Shown here: piece by piece, positions 58,288-64,000 of the stretch
Layout of the letters: every line of letters starts with the position of its first letter
How positions within the stretch are numbered: the first letter of the stretch is position 1
From: Chryseobacterium sp. MYb7
GTDB taxonomy: Bacteria > Bacteroidota > Bacteroidia > Flavobacteriales > Weeksellaceae
Direction of reading: 5' to 3'
Length of the DNA: 64,000 nt
Assembly (NCBI RefSeq): GCF_002979455.1
Contig: NZ_PCOU01000016.1
Location: 1-64,000 of the forward strand
Program-made: the position numbers and the translations under genes
The notes under the pieces: model-generated
The model's input: only the letters and a program-made list of their open reading frames with translations
What the model was told of the DNA's origin: nothing
Databases searched by the model: none

Positions 58288-58295
58288 TATATTTG
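58288..58295 (+). promoter_or_regulatory. -7 box of the ynb-like lipid operon promoter
   Basis: TATATTTG is a full match to TAnnTTTG, 32 bp before the first gene and divergent from pyrG. Confidence 0.55.
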
Positions 58296-58327
58296 ATATA
58301 AGCAAATGAAACAAAGCTATAACCATC

Positions 58328-58930
58328 ATGATTTCCGTATATAAATTAAAACCAAAATTCCAACAGCTTCTCACGCCTGTTTTATTATTTTTTCACAGAA
58401 ATAAAATCACAGCCAATCAGATTACTATCAGCTCTATTCTTTTATCCATAGTTATTGGAATCTTTTTCTGGAATGCAGATATATCGAAATGGTTCTTTCT
58501 GAGCCTGCCTACCGGATTACTTCTGAGGATGGCTTTAAATGCTTTGGACGGAATGATGGCCAGAAAATTCAATCAGACCAGTAAACTCGGAGAAGTTTTG
58601 AATGAAGTGGGTGATATTGTTTCCGATGTGATTATATTTTTCCCTCTCCTTAAATTTCAACCAGAGAGTTTATATCTTATCGTTGTGTTTATCGTTCTTG
58701 GAATTATTAATGAATTTGCTGGATTAATGGGAAAAATCGTAGGAAAAGAACGCCGTTATGATGGTCCAATGGGGAAAAGTGACCGTGCACTTGTTCTAGG
58801 AGTCTATGGATTGTTAATGCTTTTCGAAGTAAACATTTCCGGTGTTTCCCAATATATTTTTGGAATTATCATTACTTTACTTCTGATCAGCACTTATATC
58901 CGACTTAAGAAATCTCTGAATGAAGCCTGA
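58328..58930 (+). CDS. ynbA: YnbA-like CDP-alcohol phosphatidyltransferase
   Basis: This 200-residue inner-membrane enzyme of the CDP-alcohol phosphotransferase family has about six helices. Such enzymes join an alcohol to a CDP-activated lipid or group. The motif region reads NALDGMMARKF, then KLGEVLNEVGD. The usual first and third Asp of the DxxDGxxARx8GxxxDxxxD signature are Asn here (Asn71, Asn92), while Asp74, Asp96 and Asp100 are present. From memory, E. coli YnbA has the same NALDGMLAR and LNE pattern, so this is a subfamily trait and probably not decay. The end overlaps the next gene by 11 bp. The product is unknown. Confidence 0.88.
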   Translation: MISVYKLKPKFQQLLTPVLLFFHRNKITANQITISSILLSIVIGIFFWNADISKWFFLSLPTGLLLRMALNALDGMMARKFNQTSKLGEVLNEVGDIVSDVIIFFPLLKFQPESLYLIVVFIVLGIINEFAGLMGKIVGKERRYDGPMGKSDRALVLGVYGLLMLFEVNISGVSQYIFGIIITLLLISTYIRLKKSLNEA

Positions 58931-59723
58931 AGAAAATAAATTTGCAGATGTTCCTTTAAGGGTAAAAACATGGATTTACATCATTATTGTTTTTGCGCTG
59001 GGGATCTCACATCCTATTGCCATGACTGTTTTTGTTTCGTGGATAAGTTATCAGTGCTTTTTTGAATTTTCAAGGATGTTTAAAATTTATGAATCTCCTG
59101 TTGCTCCTTCGATCTTTATAGGAGTTTTACAGTTTTTTCTGCTTTATTTCTTGAATATTGAAACCTACTTTTTGTACAGCTTTCTTATATCAACACTTAT
59201 TTCATCTCGCTTTATATTGTGGGGAACTTCTAAAAAACATCTATATGGAATTTCTGTTGCTTTATTAATTTGTCTTTTTTCCTTTCCTCATTTGTTATGG
59301 ATAAGAGACAGCGTTGATGGATTGAGTGCCATTATTTTCATTGTTGTTGTGACAGAGCTCAATGATGTATTTCAGTATCTGATGGGGAAATTTTTCGGAA
59401 AACATAAAATAACTCCTCAAATAAGTCCTAACAAAACACTGGAAGGTCTTATTGGTGGTGTTTTTCTTACCCTTATTTTAAGTAATATTCTAGGTTATTT
59501 TCTACTTAAAACTGATATTTTAACCAACAGTATTTTAGGACTTGTTCTGGGAATTTCAGGTTTTTTTGGAGATATTTTTATGTCTTATTTAAAAAGAACA
59601 ACAGGAGTAAAAGATACCGGAACTCTTCTTCCGGGACATGGTGGTCTTCTCGACAGAGTAGACAGTTTAGTATTTAACGCTCCTCTATTCTTCTGGTTAT
59701 TTCCTCTTTTGATCAAAAATTAA
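58920..59723 (+). CDS. ynbB: YnbB-like phosphatidate cytidylyltransferase (CdsA family)
   Basis: This 267-residue integral membrane enzyme has about eight helices and a complete CdsA signature at 222-248 (SYLKRTTGVKDTGTLLPGHG followed by GLLDRVD). ISPNKTLEG is at 168-176. CdsA enzymes make CDP-diacylglycerol from phosphatidic acid and CTP. In the ynb operon the equivalent protein lies right after ynbA, as here, and probably supplies the CDP-lipid for YnbA. Whether this is the housekeeping CdsA or a dedicated one depends on the rest of the genome. Confidence 0.9.
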   Translation: MKPEENKFADVPLRVKTWIYIIIVFALGISHPIAMTVFVSWISYQCFFEFSRMFKIYESPVAPSIFIGVLQFFLLYFLNIETYFLYSFLISTLISSRFILWGTSKKHLYGISVALLICLFSFPHLLWIRDSVDGLSAIIFIVVVTELNDVFQYLMGKFFGKHKITPQISPNKTLEGLIGGVFLTLILSNILGYFLLKTDILTNSILGLVLGISGFFGDIFMSYLKRTTGVKDTGTLLPGHGGLLDRVDSLVFNAPLFFWLFPLLIKN

Positions 59724-59727
59724 GGCA

Positions 59728-60768
59728 ATGAGTGAAAAATTTAAAAGAGCAGTTATCTTTTCAGGAGGCGGAACAAGACTGATGATTTATCTAGGGATGT
59801 TTGCAGCGCTGGAAAAACTCGATCTCAAACCGGACATCCTGATTGCTTCCTGTGGCGGATCATTTGCAGCCACAATCATCAATGCTTTTCCTGATCATCT
59901 TTCCAGAAAAGAATATCTGCAGTCTGAAGAATACTTTCAGTTTGTTTCAGGTACAATCGTAACAGAGCAAAAAAAGTTATCAAAAATGGGACTTTTTTCA
60001 TTAAAAAAAATGCTGGATAAAAGAAAAGCTCCCTTTATTGAAGATGTTTTCAACCGATACCTTGTGGAAATGCCTCAAGATCTATCTGAATACTTTCCAT
60101 CTATCAAAAATGTTCAGTTTTCAAAAGAAATACCGACTGTAATTATTGGTTCCGAAGTTCTTTTTACCCCAAAAGATTGTGGACAGAAAAGAAATGGAAG
60201 AAAACTATATCAAAAAGCAATTTTTACAGATCCTGAAACAACAAAGAAAATCAATCCTGAAAAAATCATTGCTGATTCTGAGAGCTTTAAAAACAGTGCC
60301 GTTAAAGAATCTCCCAAAATTTTCACAAATTTTTCTCTACTTGAAAGCACCCGCGCTTCCATTTCCGATATGTTTTATGTAGAACCTGCATTTCTTCAGG
60401 GAAAATATTTTGCCGGCGGAGCTATAGATCTCGTTCCGGCTGAAATAAGCCAACATCTGGCACAGGAAATCATTACCGAAAAAAAACAGTCTTACAATCC
60501 AATAGAAGAAGCACTTGTACGTTCTGTCCTTGGATTTAGCGGCAATGAAAGACTTGCAGAAACCAACCTGCTTTTATCCGGTCTTCAGATTGACACTATC
60601 AATATAAAACAAGAACTGGAAGGGCATTATCTAAAAAAAGGAATTGACTGGAAAAAATTTGAAGTCAGTTTTTCATTCCCGAAAAACTATCAGCAATTTG
60701 TAAAAGATATGGAAATACAATGGCAGTATGGGTTTGATCAAACAATGAAAAGTATAAAAAAGGGATAA
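59728..60768 (+). CDS. Patatin-like phospholipase-family protein
   Basis: This 346-residue protein has a patatin domain beginning RAVIFSGGGTRLMIYLGMFA. The GGG oxyanion loop (13-15) and nucleophile elbow GGSFA (Ser45) are intact. The DG[GA] motif that supplies the catalytic Asp elsewhere appears as YFAGGAIDL, so the Asp is replaced by Ala229; Asp234 might serve instead. Patatins are acyl hydrolases acting on lipids. It lies 4 bp after the ynbB-like gene, so it belongs to the operon, and is not part of the E. coli ynbABCD set. No signal peptide is seen, suggesting a cytoplasmic membrane-face location. Confidence 0.8.
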   Translation: MSEKFKRAVIFSGGGTRLMIYLGMFAALEKLDLKPDILIASCGGSFAATIINAFPDHLSRKEYLQSEEYFQFVSGTIVTEQKKLSKMGLFSLKKMLDKRKAPFIEDVFNRYLVEMPQDLSEYFPSIKNVQFSKEIPTVIIGSEVLFTPKDCGQKRNGRKLYQKAIFTDPETTKKINPEKIIADSESFKNSAVKESPKIFTNFSLLESTRASISDMFYVEPAFLQGKYFAGGAIDLVPAEISQHLAQEIITEKKQSYNPIEEALVRSVLGFSGNERLAETNLLLSGLQIDTINIKQELEGHYLKKGIDWKKFEVSFSFPKNYQQFVKDMEIQWQYGFDQTMKSIKKG

Positions 60769-60790
60769 CAATATTTTAACTGAAAACATG

Positions 60791-60852
60791 AAAATTCCCC
60801 TCCTCCGGTGGGGTGGCGAAAATTCAAAGAATTTTTGACGGGGTGGTTTTTA
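60791..60852. repeat. Intergenic repeat-like element 1
   Basis: A C-rich/G-rich pair (CCCCTCC and GGGGTGG) is followed by AAAATTC-AAA-GAATTTT, a small hairpin, and GACGGGGTGG. From memory, sequences of this type recur between genes in Chryseobacterium. The multi-copy status cannot be shown from one window. Confidence 0.5.
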
Positions 60853-60867
60853 ACACATAGTTTTAAG

Positions 60868-60930
60868 TTTCGGCTAAAGCCAATGGCATGGTAATCTATT
60901 GTGATCACGGGCTAAAGCCCGTGCCTATTG
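60868..60930. repeat. Intergenic repeat-like element 2 with palindromic hairpin
   Basis: GGCTAAAGCC occurs twice (60872-60881 and 60910-60919). The second copy lies in a perfect hairpin (CACGGGC, TAAA loop, GCCCGTG, 60906-60923). Such GGCTAAAGCC elements are familiar from Chryseobacterium intergenic DNA. The pair of elements occupies the 269-bp gap that splits the lipid cluster. Confidence 0.55.
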
Positions 60931-61037
60931 AATTAATATTTCAGAAAATAAAACTTTAGACAGCTTCATCAAAAAACATTCACCCAATTTTCACTTTTAA
61001 AATCTATTTTTACAAAAATGAAAACTACCAAACACTT

Positions 61038-61793
61038 ATGAACGTTTTTATCGCAGGCGGAACTTCGGGTATTGGCTATACATTGGCCAAACATTATCTT
61101 TCTAAAGGATGTAGTGTAGGAATCTGCGGAAGAGATCTTACCAAAATCACTGAAAATAATTCTAAGGATTTAAAAGCATTTCAGACAGATGTTTGTGATA
61201 TAAACGCCATGTTATCCACATTGCAATCTTTTCTTGTGGATAAAAATGGTCTTGACATTTTTATCAACTGTGCCGGAAGCTATGCTGAAGATGTAGCAGG
61301 AAGAATTTCCTATGAAGAGGCTGAAGAAATGCTTCAAACTAATATTCTGGGTACCGTAAACTGCTTCGAGGCAACGAGAAAAGTAATGAAAAACCAGCAA
61401 AAAGGAAGCATTGCTGTGATTGCTTCTGTTTCCGGGATGCTTGAATATGAAAACTCTAGTCTTTATACGAAGACCAAACGTTCTGTCATTCAGATTGCAG
61501 ATGCGTATCGACGAGCGTTAAAACCTTTTGGAATCTCCGTCACTACAATTGCACCAGGATATATTGACACTGAGAAATTAAGACAGCTCAACCAAAATGA
61601 TTTAAGCAAAAAACCATTTCTTACGGATGTACAAACTGCAGTCCTAATTATTACTGAAGCTATTGAAAATCAGAAAAAACTCATTATTTTTCCTTCAAAA
61701 ATGAAGTGGATGATGCGGTCATTATCCCTGCTTCCTTCTTCACTATTAAATATCATCATGTTTAGAAAGGCCAAATGGATGAAAAACGACTAG
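61038..61793 (+). CDS. Short-chain dehydrogenase/reductase (SDR)
   Basis: This 251-residue oxidoreductase has the NAD(P)-binding motif GGTSGIG (7-13), NCAG (77-80), a catalytic Ser in ASVSG (130-132), Tyr143 and Lys147 (YTKTK). The substrate is unknown; SDRs often reduce keto groups in lipid pathways. Two hydrophobic stretches near the C-terminus could associate with the membrane. It is preceded by 269 bp of repeat DNA and its last 19 bp overlap the next gene. An extra gene compared with ynbABCD. Confidence 0.88.
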   Translation: MNVFIAGGTSGIGYTLAKHYLSKGCSVGICGRDLTKITENNSKDLKAFQTDVCDINAMLSTLQSFLVDKNGLDIFINCAGSYAEDVAGRISYEEAEEMLQTNILGTVNCFEATRKVMKNQQKGSIAVIASVSGMLEYENSSLYTKTKRSVIQIADAYRRALKPFGISVTTIAPGYIDTEKLRQLNQNDLSKKPFLTDVQTAVLIITEAIENQKKLIIFPSKMKWMMRSLSLLPSSLLNIIMFRKAKWMKND

Positions 61794-63076
61794 CAATACA
61801 ACAGAAACTTTACGCTCTCACTCTTTGTGCCATTGTATTTATGATGGTTTACAATTTCGCGGCATGGTATGTTTCGAGACTGGCAAATGTTCCGTCTTTT
61901 GTTTTTGATTTTGAAAAATACATTCCATTTATTTCGTGGAGCATCATTCCTTATATGACGAGCGGAATCTTTTTCTGTCTGGTGTTTTTTTTCTGTCAGA
62001 ATAAAGAACAGCTGAAAGTTTTGACCCAAAGAATACTTTTTGTAACTGTTGTTGCAGGGATTTGTTTCTTATTATTTCCCTTAAAATTTTCTCTGCCAAA
62101 ACCTGAGGTCGACAGTTCTATTTTGGGATATTCTTTTCAGTTTTTAAAAGTATTTGATGCTCCGTTCAATCAGGCTCCTTCGCTTCATATTGCCTATGCT
62201 TTTATTTTTTGGTCTGTTTTCAGGAATTTAAAAAGAGGAAGAACTTTGGTAATGTTTTGGCTTATTCTGCTGGGAATTTCTACTTTGACAACCTATCAGC
62301 ATCATTTCATTGATGTCATCACTGGAAGTATTCTCGCTCATCTAAGTTTTATCATCTTTCCTTATAGAAAAACCGATTTTCAGTACCGAAATTTTCAAGT
62401 TGCTAACCTCTATTTTTTATCAGGATGGATTCTCATTTTAGCAGCAATTCTTGCTGGTCAATTCTTTGGAAAAGCAGGATTAGTTTTACTTTGGCCAAGT
62501 TTTATGATTCTTCTCATCGGATATCATTATCAGAAAAATAATATCTTCGTTTTAAAAAATAAAAAAGGAAATATTCCATGGTTTAAAAAGATTTTTTATT
62601 TCCCATACCTGATCCTGTATCAGATATTTTGGACGTTTCTCCGAAAAAACAGAACGCCTGTGGAAATTATTCCCGGTTTATATATTTCATCAAGACCTGA
62701 TCATGAAAGTCTGAAAGATTTCCAGATTGACAAAACAACCATTGTTTATGACCTATCAGCCGAAATGGAAGAGCTTACCATTATAAAGGATAAAGCAAAT
62801 TATCATGCCGCTCCTTTTCTGGATATTGGAATGCTCGATATTAAGGAAACTCAAAAATTGGTTTCGGAAATCACAGAACATTATCAACAGCTTCCACCAG
62901 ATGGAAAGATTCTGATCCACTGTACTATGGGATTCACCAGAAGTTCAGTAATCGGGATTTTAGTAATCAAAAATATTTTATCTTTACCTCTTACAGAAGC
63001 AATAACCATGATGAAAATCCACAATAAGCATGCTGTGATTCATACCTATCTGGAGGATTTTCTGAAAAAATTTTAA
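61775..63076 (+). CDS. ynbD: YnbD-like protein: PAP2 phosphatase fused to dual-specificity phosphatase
   Basis: This 433-residue protein has an N-terminal membrane part with about six to eight helices and PAP2-type residues (NQAPSLHIAYAF, 133-144, and HHFIDVITG, 176-184). This is the acid phosphatase superfamily that removes phosphate from lipid phosphates such as phosphatidate or phosphatidylglycerol phosphate. The C-terminal 150 residues (about 290-433) form a dual-specificity/tyrosine phosphatase domain with the CX5R loop HCTMGFTRSS (382-391). The same fusion is found in E. coli YnbD, from memory. It could dephosphorylate the product of the YnbA step. The start overlaps the SDR gene. Confidence 0.88.
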   Translation: MDEKRLAIQQKLYALTLCAIVFMMVYNFAAWYVSRLANVPSFVFDFEKYIPFISWSIIPYMTSGIFFCLVFFFCQNKEQLKVLTQRILFVTVVAGICFLLFPLKFSLPKPEVDSSILGYSFQFLKVFDAPFNQAPSLHIAYAFIFWSVFRNLKRGRTLVMFWLILLGISTLTTYQHHFIDVITGSILAHLSFIIFPYRKTDFQYRNFQVANLYFLSGWILILAAILAGQFFGKAGLVLLWPSFMILLIGYHYQKNNIFVLKNKKGNIPWFKKIFYFPYLILYQIFWTFLRKNRTPVEIIPGLYISSRPDHESLKDFQIDKTTIVYDLSAEMEELTIIKDKANYHAAPFLDIGMLDIKETQKLVSEITEHYQQLPPDGKILIHCTMGFTRSSVIGILVIKNILSLPLTEAITMMKIHNKHAVIHTYLEDFLKKF

Positions 63077-63079
63077 ACT

Positions 63080-64000
63080 ATGAACAGCGGACATTTTAAA
63101 AGTTTTGACAACAGCGAAATTTTTTATCGTGAGTGGAATTATAAGCCCCACCAGAAAAGTATCATCATGATCCATCGCGGACACGAGCATTCTGAAAGAC
63201 TGAATGATATTGCTCAATCTCCTCAGTTTTCAAAATATAATATCTTCGCATTCGACCTTCGGGGACATGGCCATACAAAAACCCAAACCTCATCTGTATT
63301 TATGGATTACGTGAGAGATCTTGATGCATTTTCAAAATTTATCTGTTCTCATTACCATGTAAAAACTTCAGATATTTTCGTTCTGGCCAATAGTATAGGC
63401 GGAGTTGTGGCTTCTGCCTGGGCGCATGATTTCGCCCCTTCTATCGCTGGAATGGCTCTTCTGGCACCAGCATTTAAAATCAATCTCATTGTTCCTCTTG
63501 CTAATGAAATGATTACGTTGGGAACAAAGCTTAAGAAAGGGCTGATCATTAAAAGTTATGTAAAATCCAAAATGCTTACTCATGATCCTGAACAACAAAA
63601 GGCCTATGACACAGATCCGCTGATCTCAAGATCTATTGATGCAGAACTTCTTATTGATCTGGCAAAAGCCGGAAAACGGCTGATAGAAGATGCTGAAGCT
63701 ATAGATACCCCGACTTTGATTCTGGCTGCAGAAAAAGATCATGTGGTTTTTAATAAAGAACAGAAAATATTCCATGAAAAACTGGATACCGATTTGAAAC
63801 ACTATGAAGTTCTTCCTGATTTTTTCCATGGTATTCTATTCGATACCGGAAAGGAAAAAGTCTATGATAAAGTTGTAGATTTTGTTGAAAAATGCTTCAA
63901 CAGACCTATAAAGCAAGCTTCTCTTTCCCCTGATCAATTTTCCGTAAAAGAATATAAAGATCTGCAAAACAATATCGGGAATAACCTGAATTTTAAAATG
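63080..64000 (+). CDS. ynbC: YnbC-like alpha/beta hydrolase, cut by the window end
   Basis: From the ATG at 63080, 3 bp after the ynbD-like stop, an open frame runs to the window end (307 codons, no stop). It encodes an alpha/beta hydrolase with MIHRGHEHSERL, FAFDLRGHGHT, a nucleophile elbow ANSIGG (Asn replaces the first Gly of GxSxG), and acid/His candidates in LAAEKDHVVF and DFFHGILF. E. coli YnbC, from memory, is about 585 residues and continues into a methyltransferase domain. After residue 290 (SVKEYKDLQNN) the sequence leaves the hydrolase fold and would lead into such a domain. The 3' half is outside this window. Confidence 0.85.
   Translation, partial: MNSGHFKSFDNSEIFYREWNYKPHQKSIIMIHRGHEHSERLNDIAQSPQFSKYNIFAFDLRGHGHTKTQTSSVFMDYVRDLDAFSKFICSHYHVKTSDIFVLANSIGGVVASAWAHDFAPSIAGMALLAPAFKINLIVPLANEMITLGTKLKKGLIIKSYVKSKMLTHDPEQQKAYDTDPLISRSIDAELLIDLAKAGKRLIEDAEAIDTPTLILAAEKDHVVFNKEQKIFHEKLDTDLKHYEVLPDFFHGILFDTGKEKVYDKVVDFVEKCFNRPIKQASLSPDQFSVKEYKDLQNNIGNNLNFKM

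Follow-up and report, generated by a model that had tools for sequence, protein, structure and literature searches.

Gene content and layout of the locus

The present analysis concerns a six-gene cassette of predicted lipid enzymes in Chryseobacterium sp. MYb7, found in a stretch of 64,000 bases (hereafter the window) that covers bases 1-64000 of the 115878-base contig NZ_PCOU01000016.1 in a genome of 5.15 Mb. Six collinear genes follow pyrG on the + strand and span 58328-64780, the last of them extending past the end of the window at 64000. Their order is YnbA-YnbB-Pat-SDR-YnbD-YnbC (A-B-Pat-SDR-D-C), where Pat stands for a patatin-fold protein and SDR for a short-chain dehydrogenase/reductase, and the neighbours YnbA/YnbB and SDR/YnbD overlap. 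An earlier sequence-only reading had placed six open reading frames at these positions and in this order, which is confirmed, and had recognized four Ynb types among them, including a PAP2-DSP fusion. This assignment is borne out by comparison with YnbA-D of Escherichia coli: in BLASTP searches against the K-12 MG1655 proteins translated from NC_000913.3, YnbA matches its counterpart at 39% identity over 197 columns, YnbB at 39% over 266 columns, YnbD at 31% over 366 columns and full-length YnbC at 37% over 567 columns. The features of the locus are as follows.

58288..58295, + strand: candidate operon promoter, a -7-like element TATATTTG found by pattern match to TAnnTTTG, with no clear -33 element
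58328..58930, + strand: YnbA homologue, variant CDP-alcohol phosphotransferase with the signature NxxDGxxARx8GxxxNExxD (PF01066, BLASTP)
58920..59723, + strand: YnbB homologue, CdsA-type phosphatidate cytidylyltransferase (PF01148, BLASTP)
59728..60768, + strand: patatin-fold protein (Pat), C42 at the nucleophile elbow and no Asp in the DGG motif (PF01734, model)
60769..61037, no strand: Pat-SDR intergenic gap, with a palindromic element GGGCTAAAGCCC at 60909-60920
61038..61793, + strand: classical SDR, nearest solved relatives FabG-type 3-oxoacyl reductases (PF00106, structures)
61775..63076, + strand: YnbD homologue, PAP2_3 domain (PSLH, HHxxD) fused to a DSP-type phosphatase domain (HCx5R) (Pfam, BLASTP)
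63080..64000, on to 64780 outside the window, + strand: YnbC homologue, monoacylglycerol-lipase-like hydrolase plus PF12147 methyltransferase (Pfam, BLASTP)
64820-64843 (L005 8820-8843): terminator-like hairpin past the operon end

The pattern TAnnTTTG, to which TATATTTG was matched, is the consensus of the Bacteroidota -7 element; the match, ending 32 bases upstream of the first ATG, is no proof of function. Pfam searches of the six proteins returned PF01066, PF01148, PF01734, PF00106, PAP2_3 (with DSPc below its cut-off) and Hydrolase_4. The Pat-SDR gap differs in length among Chryseobacterium loci, and in one of them (L054, 2746-4437) it contains an oppositely oriented frame of 564 aa, whose repeats look beta-helix-like by eye.

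An altered signature in YnbA

The CDP-alcohol phosphotransferases of PF01066, to which YnbA belongs (43.4 bits against a cut-off of 22), carry the signature D1xxD2G1xxAR...G2xxxD3xxxD4, whose eight residues have been called absolutely conserved (PMC4634129). D1, D2 and D3 are reported to bind Mg-1 in Mycobacterium tuberculosis PgsA1, with D3 also binding Mg-2 and D4 as the presumed base (PMC6506517), and changing D4 to Asn nearly abolishes the activity of a phosphatidylinositol-phosphate (PIP) synthase (PMC4634129). YnbA reads N/D/N/D instead, with Asn at D1 and D3 in 84/84 loci that have the gene, as in all 50 members of the first set collected (the two sets overlap by 10 sequences, and the profile for the wide set was built from 45 of the 50). 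Directly after N3 stands an acidic residue, Glu in 83 of these loci and Asp in one; D2, G, A, G and D4 are kept in 84/84, and the motif Arg varies (Arg in 62/84). A further motif, GPxGKSDRA, is present in 49/50. Solved relatives align Asp at the two Asn positions, and control CDP-alcohol phosphotransferases from the window's order and own genome, which were the best-scoring rather than a random choice (29 other loci together with L001 and L002), read D/D/D/D in 31, 30 by pattern and L001 by eye. The Asn pair in every YnbA, set against four Asp in the controls, argues that YnbA is, judged by its sequence, a distinct subclass of the family. Membership of PF01066, as read earlier, thus stands, but with two signature Asp gone the label of an ordinary CDP-alcohol phosphotransferase is unsafe.

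In PIP synthases an Arg or Lys, R94 in M. tuberculosis PgsA1, comes right after D4 (PMC6506517). YnbA has I, V, L or M there in 50/50, and a role as an inositol-phosphate enzyme was ruled out because this Arg is missing. The nearest NCBIfam model to YnbA is archaetidylinositol phosphate synthase, at 68.5 bits against a cut-off of 180.

A patatin fold with cysteine at the elbow

Pat scores 37.1 bits with PF01734, for which the cut-off is 27.7. Its AlphaFold model (pLDDT 92.9), made from an alignment of the window sequence and 26 of 36 full-length sequences, superposes on PlpD with a Z of 20.1, an rmsd of 3.3 and 230 aligned residues, compared with a Z of 6 to 8 for FabD-type transacylases, and its top Foldseek match is CapV. 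In the model C42 connects strand 37-41 with helix 43-53; the elbow reads ASCGG or similar where patatins have GTSxG, and the Ser nucleophile of GxSxG is absent. Cys occupies the nucleophile position in 79/79 Pat sequences that hold it, across phyla. The Asp of DG[GA] is replaced by A, M, T, L, F or I in 80/80 Pat and S211, D214, E251 and K253 are invariant in the 80, a set in which some Chryseobacterium genomes are counted twice. The genome itself has six other patatins, and the four that were read all have canonical motifs.

Lipase-fold acyltransferases that use Cys exist, for example polyhydroxyalkanoate (PHA) synthase, and acyl transfer by patatin domains has animal precedents in PNPLA3 and ATGL, which are said to keep Ser-Asp. 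By such analogy, a thiol acyltransferase is the natural guess for Pat. That the patatin trims the lipid, as was proposed from the sequence, is doubtful, as neither the catalytic Ser nor the catalytic Asp is retained. A search of open-licence PMC papers (patatin, cysteine, nucleophile, acyltransferase) returned no title on such a Cys-patatin.

YnbB, the reductase, YnbD and YnbC

YnbB scores 190.3 bits with PF01148, and the CdsA signature, KRxxxxKD...PGHGGxxDRxD, reads KRTTGVKDTGTLLPGHGGLLDRVD in the window protein. All three patterns tried for this signature match in 42/50 YnbB homologues. A second CdsA-type gene lies elsewhere in the same genome, and YnbB is therefore probably dedicated rather than housekeeping. 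E. coli YnbB has been reported to make CDP-diacylglycerol (CDP-DAG) in vitro and to support synthesis of MPIase (GlcNAc-PP-DAG), without substituting for CdsA in bulk phospholipid supply (PMC6362211, PMC7018664). YnbB has also been reported to increase at low temperature (PMC10881803). The earlier statement that the E. coli operon has no established product thus seems true of the operon, though YnbB itself has been studied. Among the open-licence PMC papers searched, neither the operon product nor the name ynbABCD was found, no paper was titled on the function of ynbA, ynbC or ynbD, PF12147 or Methyltransf_20 was not mentioned, and none combined at least four of five cassette terms.

The nearest solved structures to the SDR are mostly FabG types, which is not decisive for its substrate. 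YnbD matches PAP2_3 with 39.2 bits (cut-off 27); its DSPc score of 25.2 bits is below the cut-off of 33.5, but HCx5R is present. Across the 67 loci with YnbD, the PAP2 motifs are found in 66 and HCx5R of the DSP part in 43. Another 24 Chryseobacterium genomes, lacking YnbC and Pat, encode a protein that shares 54-65% identity with YnbD in the PAP2 half but has no DSP half (e.g., L012 7404-8309, L013, L014). These were first taken as remnants of a lost cassette, but of three that were examined only one occupies the pyrG-YceI-radA site of the cassette.

When followed further along the contig (63080-64780), YnbC is a protein of 566 aa with the hydrolase and a C-terminal PF12147 domain in one chain, as in E. 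coli YnbC. The description of this protein as a hydrolase was correct for one part of it; it is also a methyltransferase by family, and the gene is cut at the window end with most of the methyltransferase half beyond. The hydrolase domain matches monoacylglycerol lipases in the PDB. The methyltransferase fold matches 3ocj best (Z 22.2, 'possible exported protein') and then methyltransferases of many substrates, from which diversity no specific YnbC substrate follows.

Alternating modules

The wider comparison covers 91 loci, namely the best 80 of 573 confirmed YnbC loci from a wide scan, biased to the window's relatives and in some cases cut by contig ends, together with the window, E. coli and nine plasmid records. 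Within the fetched stretch of those 80, which were chosen for YnbC, YnbA occurs in 74, YnbB in 71 and YnbD in 67. Pat is found in 40 of the 91 loci, each time with the SDR, a PlsC-type lysophospholipid acyltransferase (LPLAT) in 39, both in none and neither in 12; at one locus without Pat (L107) the contig is cut next to the SDR. The acyltransferase is PF01553 in both proteins tested, and both motif patterns tried are present in 29/39 and one pattern in 10/39. The patatin and the SDR, previously regarded as extras, thus form one module that alternates with the acyltransferase.

The history of this alternation was read from a YnbC tree of 87/91 loci (L086, L091, L092 and L127 were left out as too short or split), built by a quick method with no mixture model and with long branches flagged at L139, L151 and L164. 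The module label changes at least three times on this tree, or at least twice if the long-branched L151 is set aside, and a topology that unites all Pat loci in one clade is rejected (p-AU 0.0004). Pat+SDR is placed in Bacteroidota with Fusobacterium, in Burkholderiales and in one Desulfobacterales genome; the Burkholderiales loci fall within the part of the tree that acyltransferase types otherwise make up, and a Moraxella plasmid, off the tree, also has Pat+SDR. The alternation with repeated switches suggests that Pat+SDR and the PlsC-type acyltransferase do the same job.

Distribution and conservation

YnbC occurs in 45/173 genomes of the genus, and Pat in those same 45. Neighbourhoods were fetched for 40 of the 44 other YnbC-positive genomes (leaving out G397, G497, G510 and G516), and all six genes stand in one order in 40/40 of them, so that the expected co-occurrence of the ynb types holds within the genus. 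The flanking pyrG, YceI and radA all adjoin the cassette in 33/40 and at least one of the three does in the other 7/40. A few genomes of the genus (L075, L059, L074, L083; G497, G510, G516) have individual cassette genes that look interrupted: YnbA of L075 is seen as two overlapping pieces, and YnbC, Pat or YnbD is fragmented in G497, G510 and G516. Stops have also been reported within the YnbC matches of G538, G535 and G532.

In a sample of 395 Bacteroidota genomes YnbC and the Pat profile were each found in 1/395, both times the window's own genome, and YnbD matches in 4/395, once in the window's genome and three times as a PAP2-only protein from the same genus. Among named genomes, a scan found YnbC in other Bacteroidota (Cellulophaga, Aquimarina, Sphingobacterium, Capnocytophaga, Dysgonomonas, Flavobacterium, Myroides, Hoylesella) and, outside the phylum, in Fusobacterium, Campylobacterota, Pseudomonadota, Bdellovibrionota, Verrucomicrobiota, Planctomycetota, Acidobacteriota and Desulfobacterales, many of the entries being metagenome-assembled genomes. 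Relatives are thus spread over nine or more phyla (Bacteroidota, Fusobacteriota, Campylobacterota, Pseudomonadota, Bdellovibrionota, Verrucomicrobiota, Thermodesulfobacteriota, Planctomycetota, Acidobacteriota), several being known only from metagenome-assembled genomes, and plasmid records with YnbC come from Moraxella, Shinella, Rhizobium, Burkholderia, Citrobacter and the cyanobacterium Pseudanabaena. The cassette does occur in Bacteroidota, the setting first proposed for it, but is not specific to them; it looks like a patchy, horizontally moving cassette and not a Bacteroidota invention.

No additional cassette family was found within 4 kb in more than 9 of 81 loci (L101-L110 excluded). 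The largest groups of extra genes are restricted to Pseudomonas or Sphingobacterium, and the cross-phylum groups reach at most six loci and appear by eye to be large general families (receiver-domain regulators, AMP-binding ligases, FabI-type reductases). On the Moraxella osloensis plasmid pNP7-2 (L086, 8001-9749) there is a stop in the YnbC frame, with IS3 transposases near the cassette. In the 13 kb fetched of a Kosakonia cowanii plasmid (L092), a YnbC-like lipase-methyltransferase is the sole Ynb gene; its neighbours there are ACP-like, ketosynthase, MaoC and FabG genes. On the Pseudanabaena plasmid (L091) an acyltransferase-type cassette adjoins nitrogen fixation genes, and the YnbC match is to the methyltransferase half only.

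Proposed pathway and alternatives

We put at roughly 0.5 the probability that the cluster encodes a dedicated and self-contained route to a modified, minor glycerophospholipid and represents, in Bacteroidota, the same cassette to which E. coli ynbABCD belongs. With two enzymes whose family-essential residues are swapped, the product is probably a so far undescribed membrane lipid. As read from the protein families, the module alternation and the residue changes, the reactions would run in five steps. First, the Cys-patatin and the SDR would build or re-acylate a phosphatidate-type precursor via a thioester acyl-enzyme, standing in for the PlsC-type acyltransferase of other cassettes; in the best model the acyl-transfer step is done by either module. 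YnbB would then convert the precursor to CDP-DAG, as reported for E. coli YnbB, and YnbA, with its altered metal site and the extra acidic residue beside signature position 3, would pass the phosphatidyl group to an acceptor. In the fourth step YnbD may take the phosphate off a lipid intermediate, the PAP2 part being constant and the DSP part optional, and in the fifth YnbC may methylate the product or an intermediate, its lipase domain removing or turning over an acyl chain. The lipid pathway derived from CDP-DAG that had been proposed from the sequence survives here in a general sense, with the reactions of the patatin, YnbA and YnbC altered.

Several observations weigh against this scheme. 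The role of the SDR is not fixed by homology, and Pat could be a non-catalytic lipid binder, just as the N/N site could mean that YnbA has lost its transferase activity. Three Bacteroidota Pat loci of Dysgonomonas and Hoylesella (L122, L131, L132) have no YnbB in the fetched stretch. Neither module is present in 12/91 loci, E. coli included, so the acyl step is not always cassette-encoded, and some 3.9 kb past YnbA one of the acyltransferase loci (L141) shows a strong match to the SDR. The switches behind the alternation number two or three, and the sample leans towards the window's relatives.

A more specific version of the glycerophospholipid pathway can be advanced only tentatively, since we would sooner doubt than assert it: the cassette would make an undescribed phospholipid using two new enzyme subclasses, a YnbA that works with two of the four carboxylates missing from its metal site, and a thiol acyltransferase of patatin fold that takes the place of the PlsC type together with a partner reductase. 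Pat might, for example, acylate a ketonic three-carbon phosphate, its reduction being left to the SDR.

It is improbable, though worth weighing, that YnbA and Pat are pseudoenzymes that bind CDP-DAG or acyl-lipid and regulate YnbB, YnbC or YnbD. Asn at two of the four metal-binding Asp of YnbA and the replacement of both Ser and Asp in the patatin dyad are what such proteins might display, but D2, G, A, G and D4 of YnbA are kept in 84/84 and GPxGKSDRA in 49/50, and the Pat Cys is invariant across phyla instead of drifting. Phospholipid remodelling or turnover, with the lipase, patatin and PAP2 proteins degrading lipids and the SDR and methyltransferase handling lysolipids or free fatty acids, is likewise unlikely; it would suit the resemblance of the YnbC hydrolase to monoacylglycerol lipases in the PDB and the phosphatase families of PAP2 and DSP, yet YnbA and YnbB come from synthetic families and are frequent (74/80 and 71/80 among the best 80 of 573 loci), the alternative module is a PlsC-type acyltransferase and Pat has no hydrolytic dyad. 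Quite improbable is an MPIase-like glycolipid or pyrophosphate-DAG anchor, in which YnbB would make GlcNAc-PP-DAG for the other genes to modify: overproduction of E. coli YnbB raises MPIase and, under CdsA depletion, YnbB restores MPIase and not phospholipid (PMC6362211, PMC7018664), but MPIase was not significantly altered in an E. coli ynbB knockout, no glycosyltransferase is among the cassette families profiled or named in the annotated cassettes, and YnbA, YnbC and YnbD have no known place in the MPIase pathway.

Should the glycerophospholipid pathway prove true, it would add a new bacterial lipid, and residues of CDP-alcohol phosphotransferases held to be 'absolutely conserved' would be shown not to be so. 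The residue changes offer sharp mutants for testing, and the interchangeable modules point to a step worth assaying.

Comparison with known systems

YnbA shares PF01066 and the kept D2, G, A, G and D4 with the CDP-alcohol phosphotransferases AF2299, PIP synthase and CPT1, as well as a nucleotide-site motif like P(D/N)xx(T/S) in 44/50 YnbA, and differs from them in Asn at signature Asp 1 and Asp 3 and in the Glu or Asp after position 3. Pat has the fold and the GGGxR motif of the patatin-like phospholipases PlpD, CapV and patatin, but carries Cys for the elbow Ser and is without the DGG Asp. The type-L cassettes of Pseudomonas, Stenotrophomonas, Shinella, Campylobacterota and the Citrobacter and Pseudanabaena plasmids resemble the present one in YnbA, YnbB, YnbC and often YnbD, whereas a PlsC-type acyltransferase takes the place of Pat+SDR, and some add a hypothetical protein of about 140 aa. 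In E. coli K-12, ynbABCD (b1408-b1411) holds all four types side by side, including the lipase-methyltransferase YnbC, the PAP2-DSP protein YnbD and a YnbA bearing the same N/N signature, but its order is A-B-C-D and it is without Pat, SDR or acyltransferase; the E. coli operon appears as the reduced form of a lipid cassette spread over many phyla.

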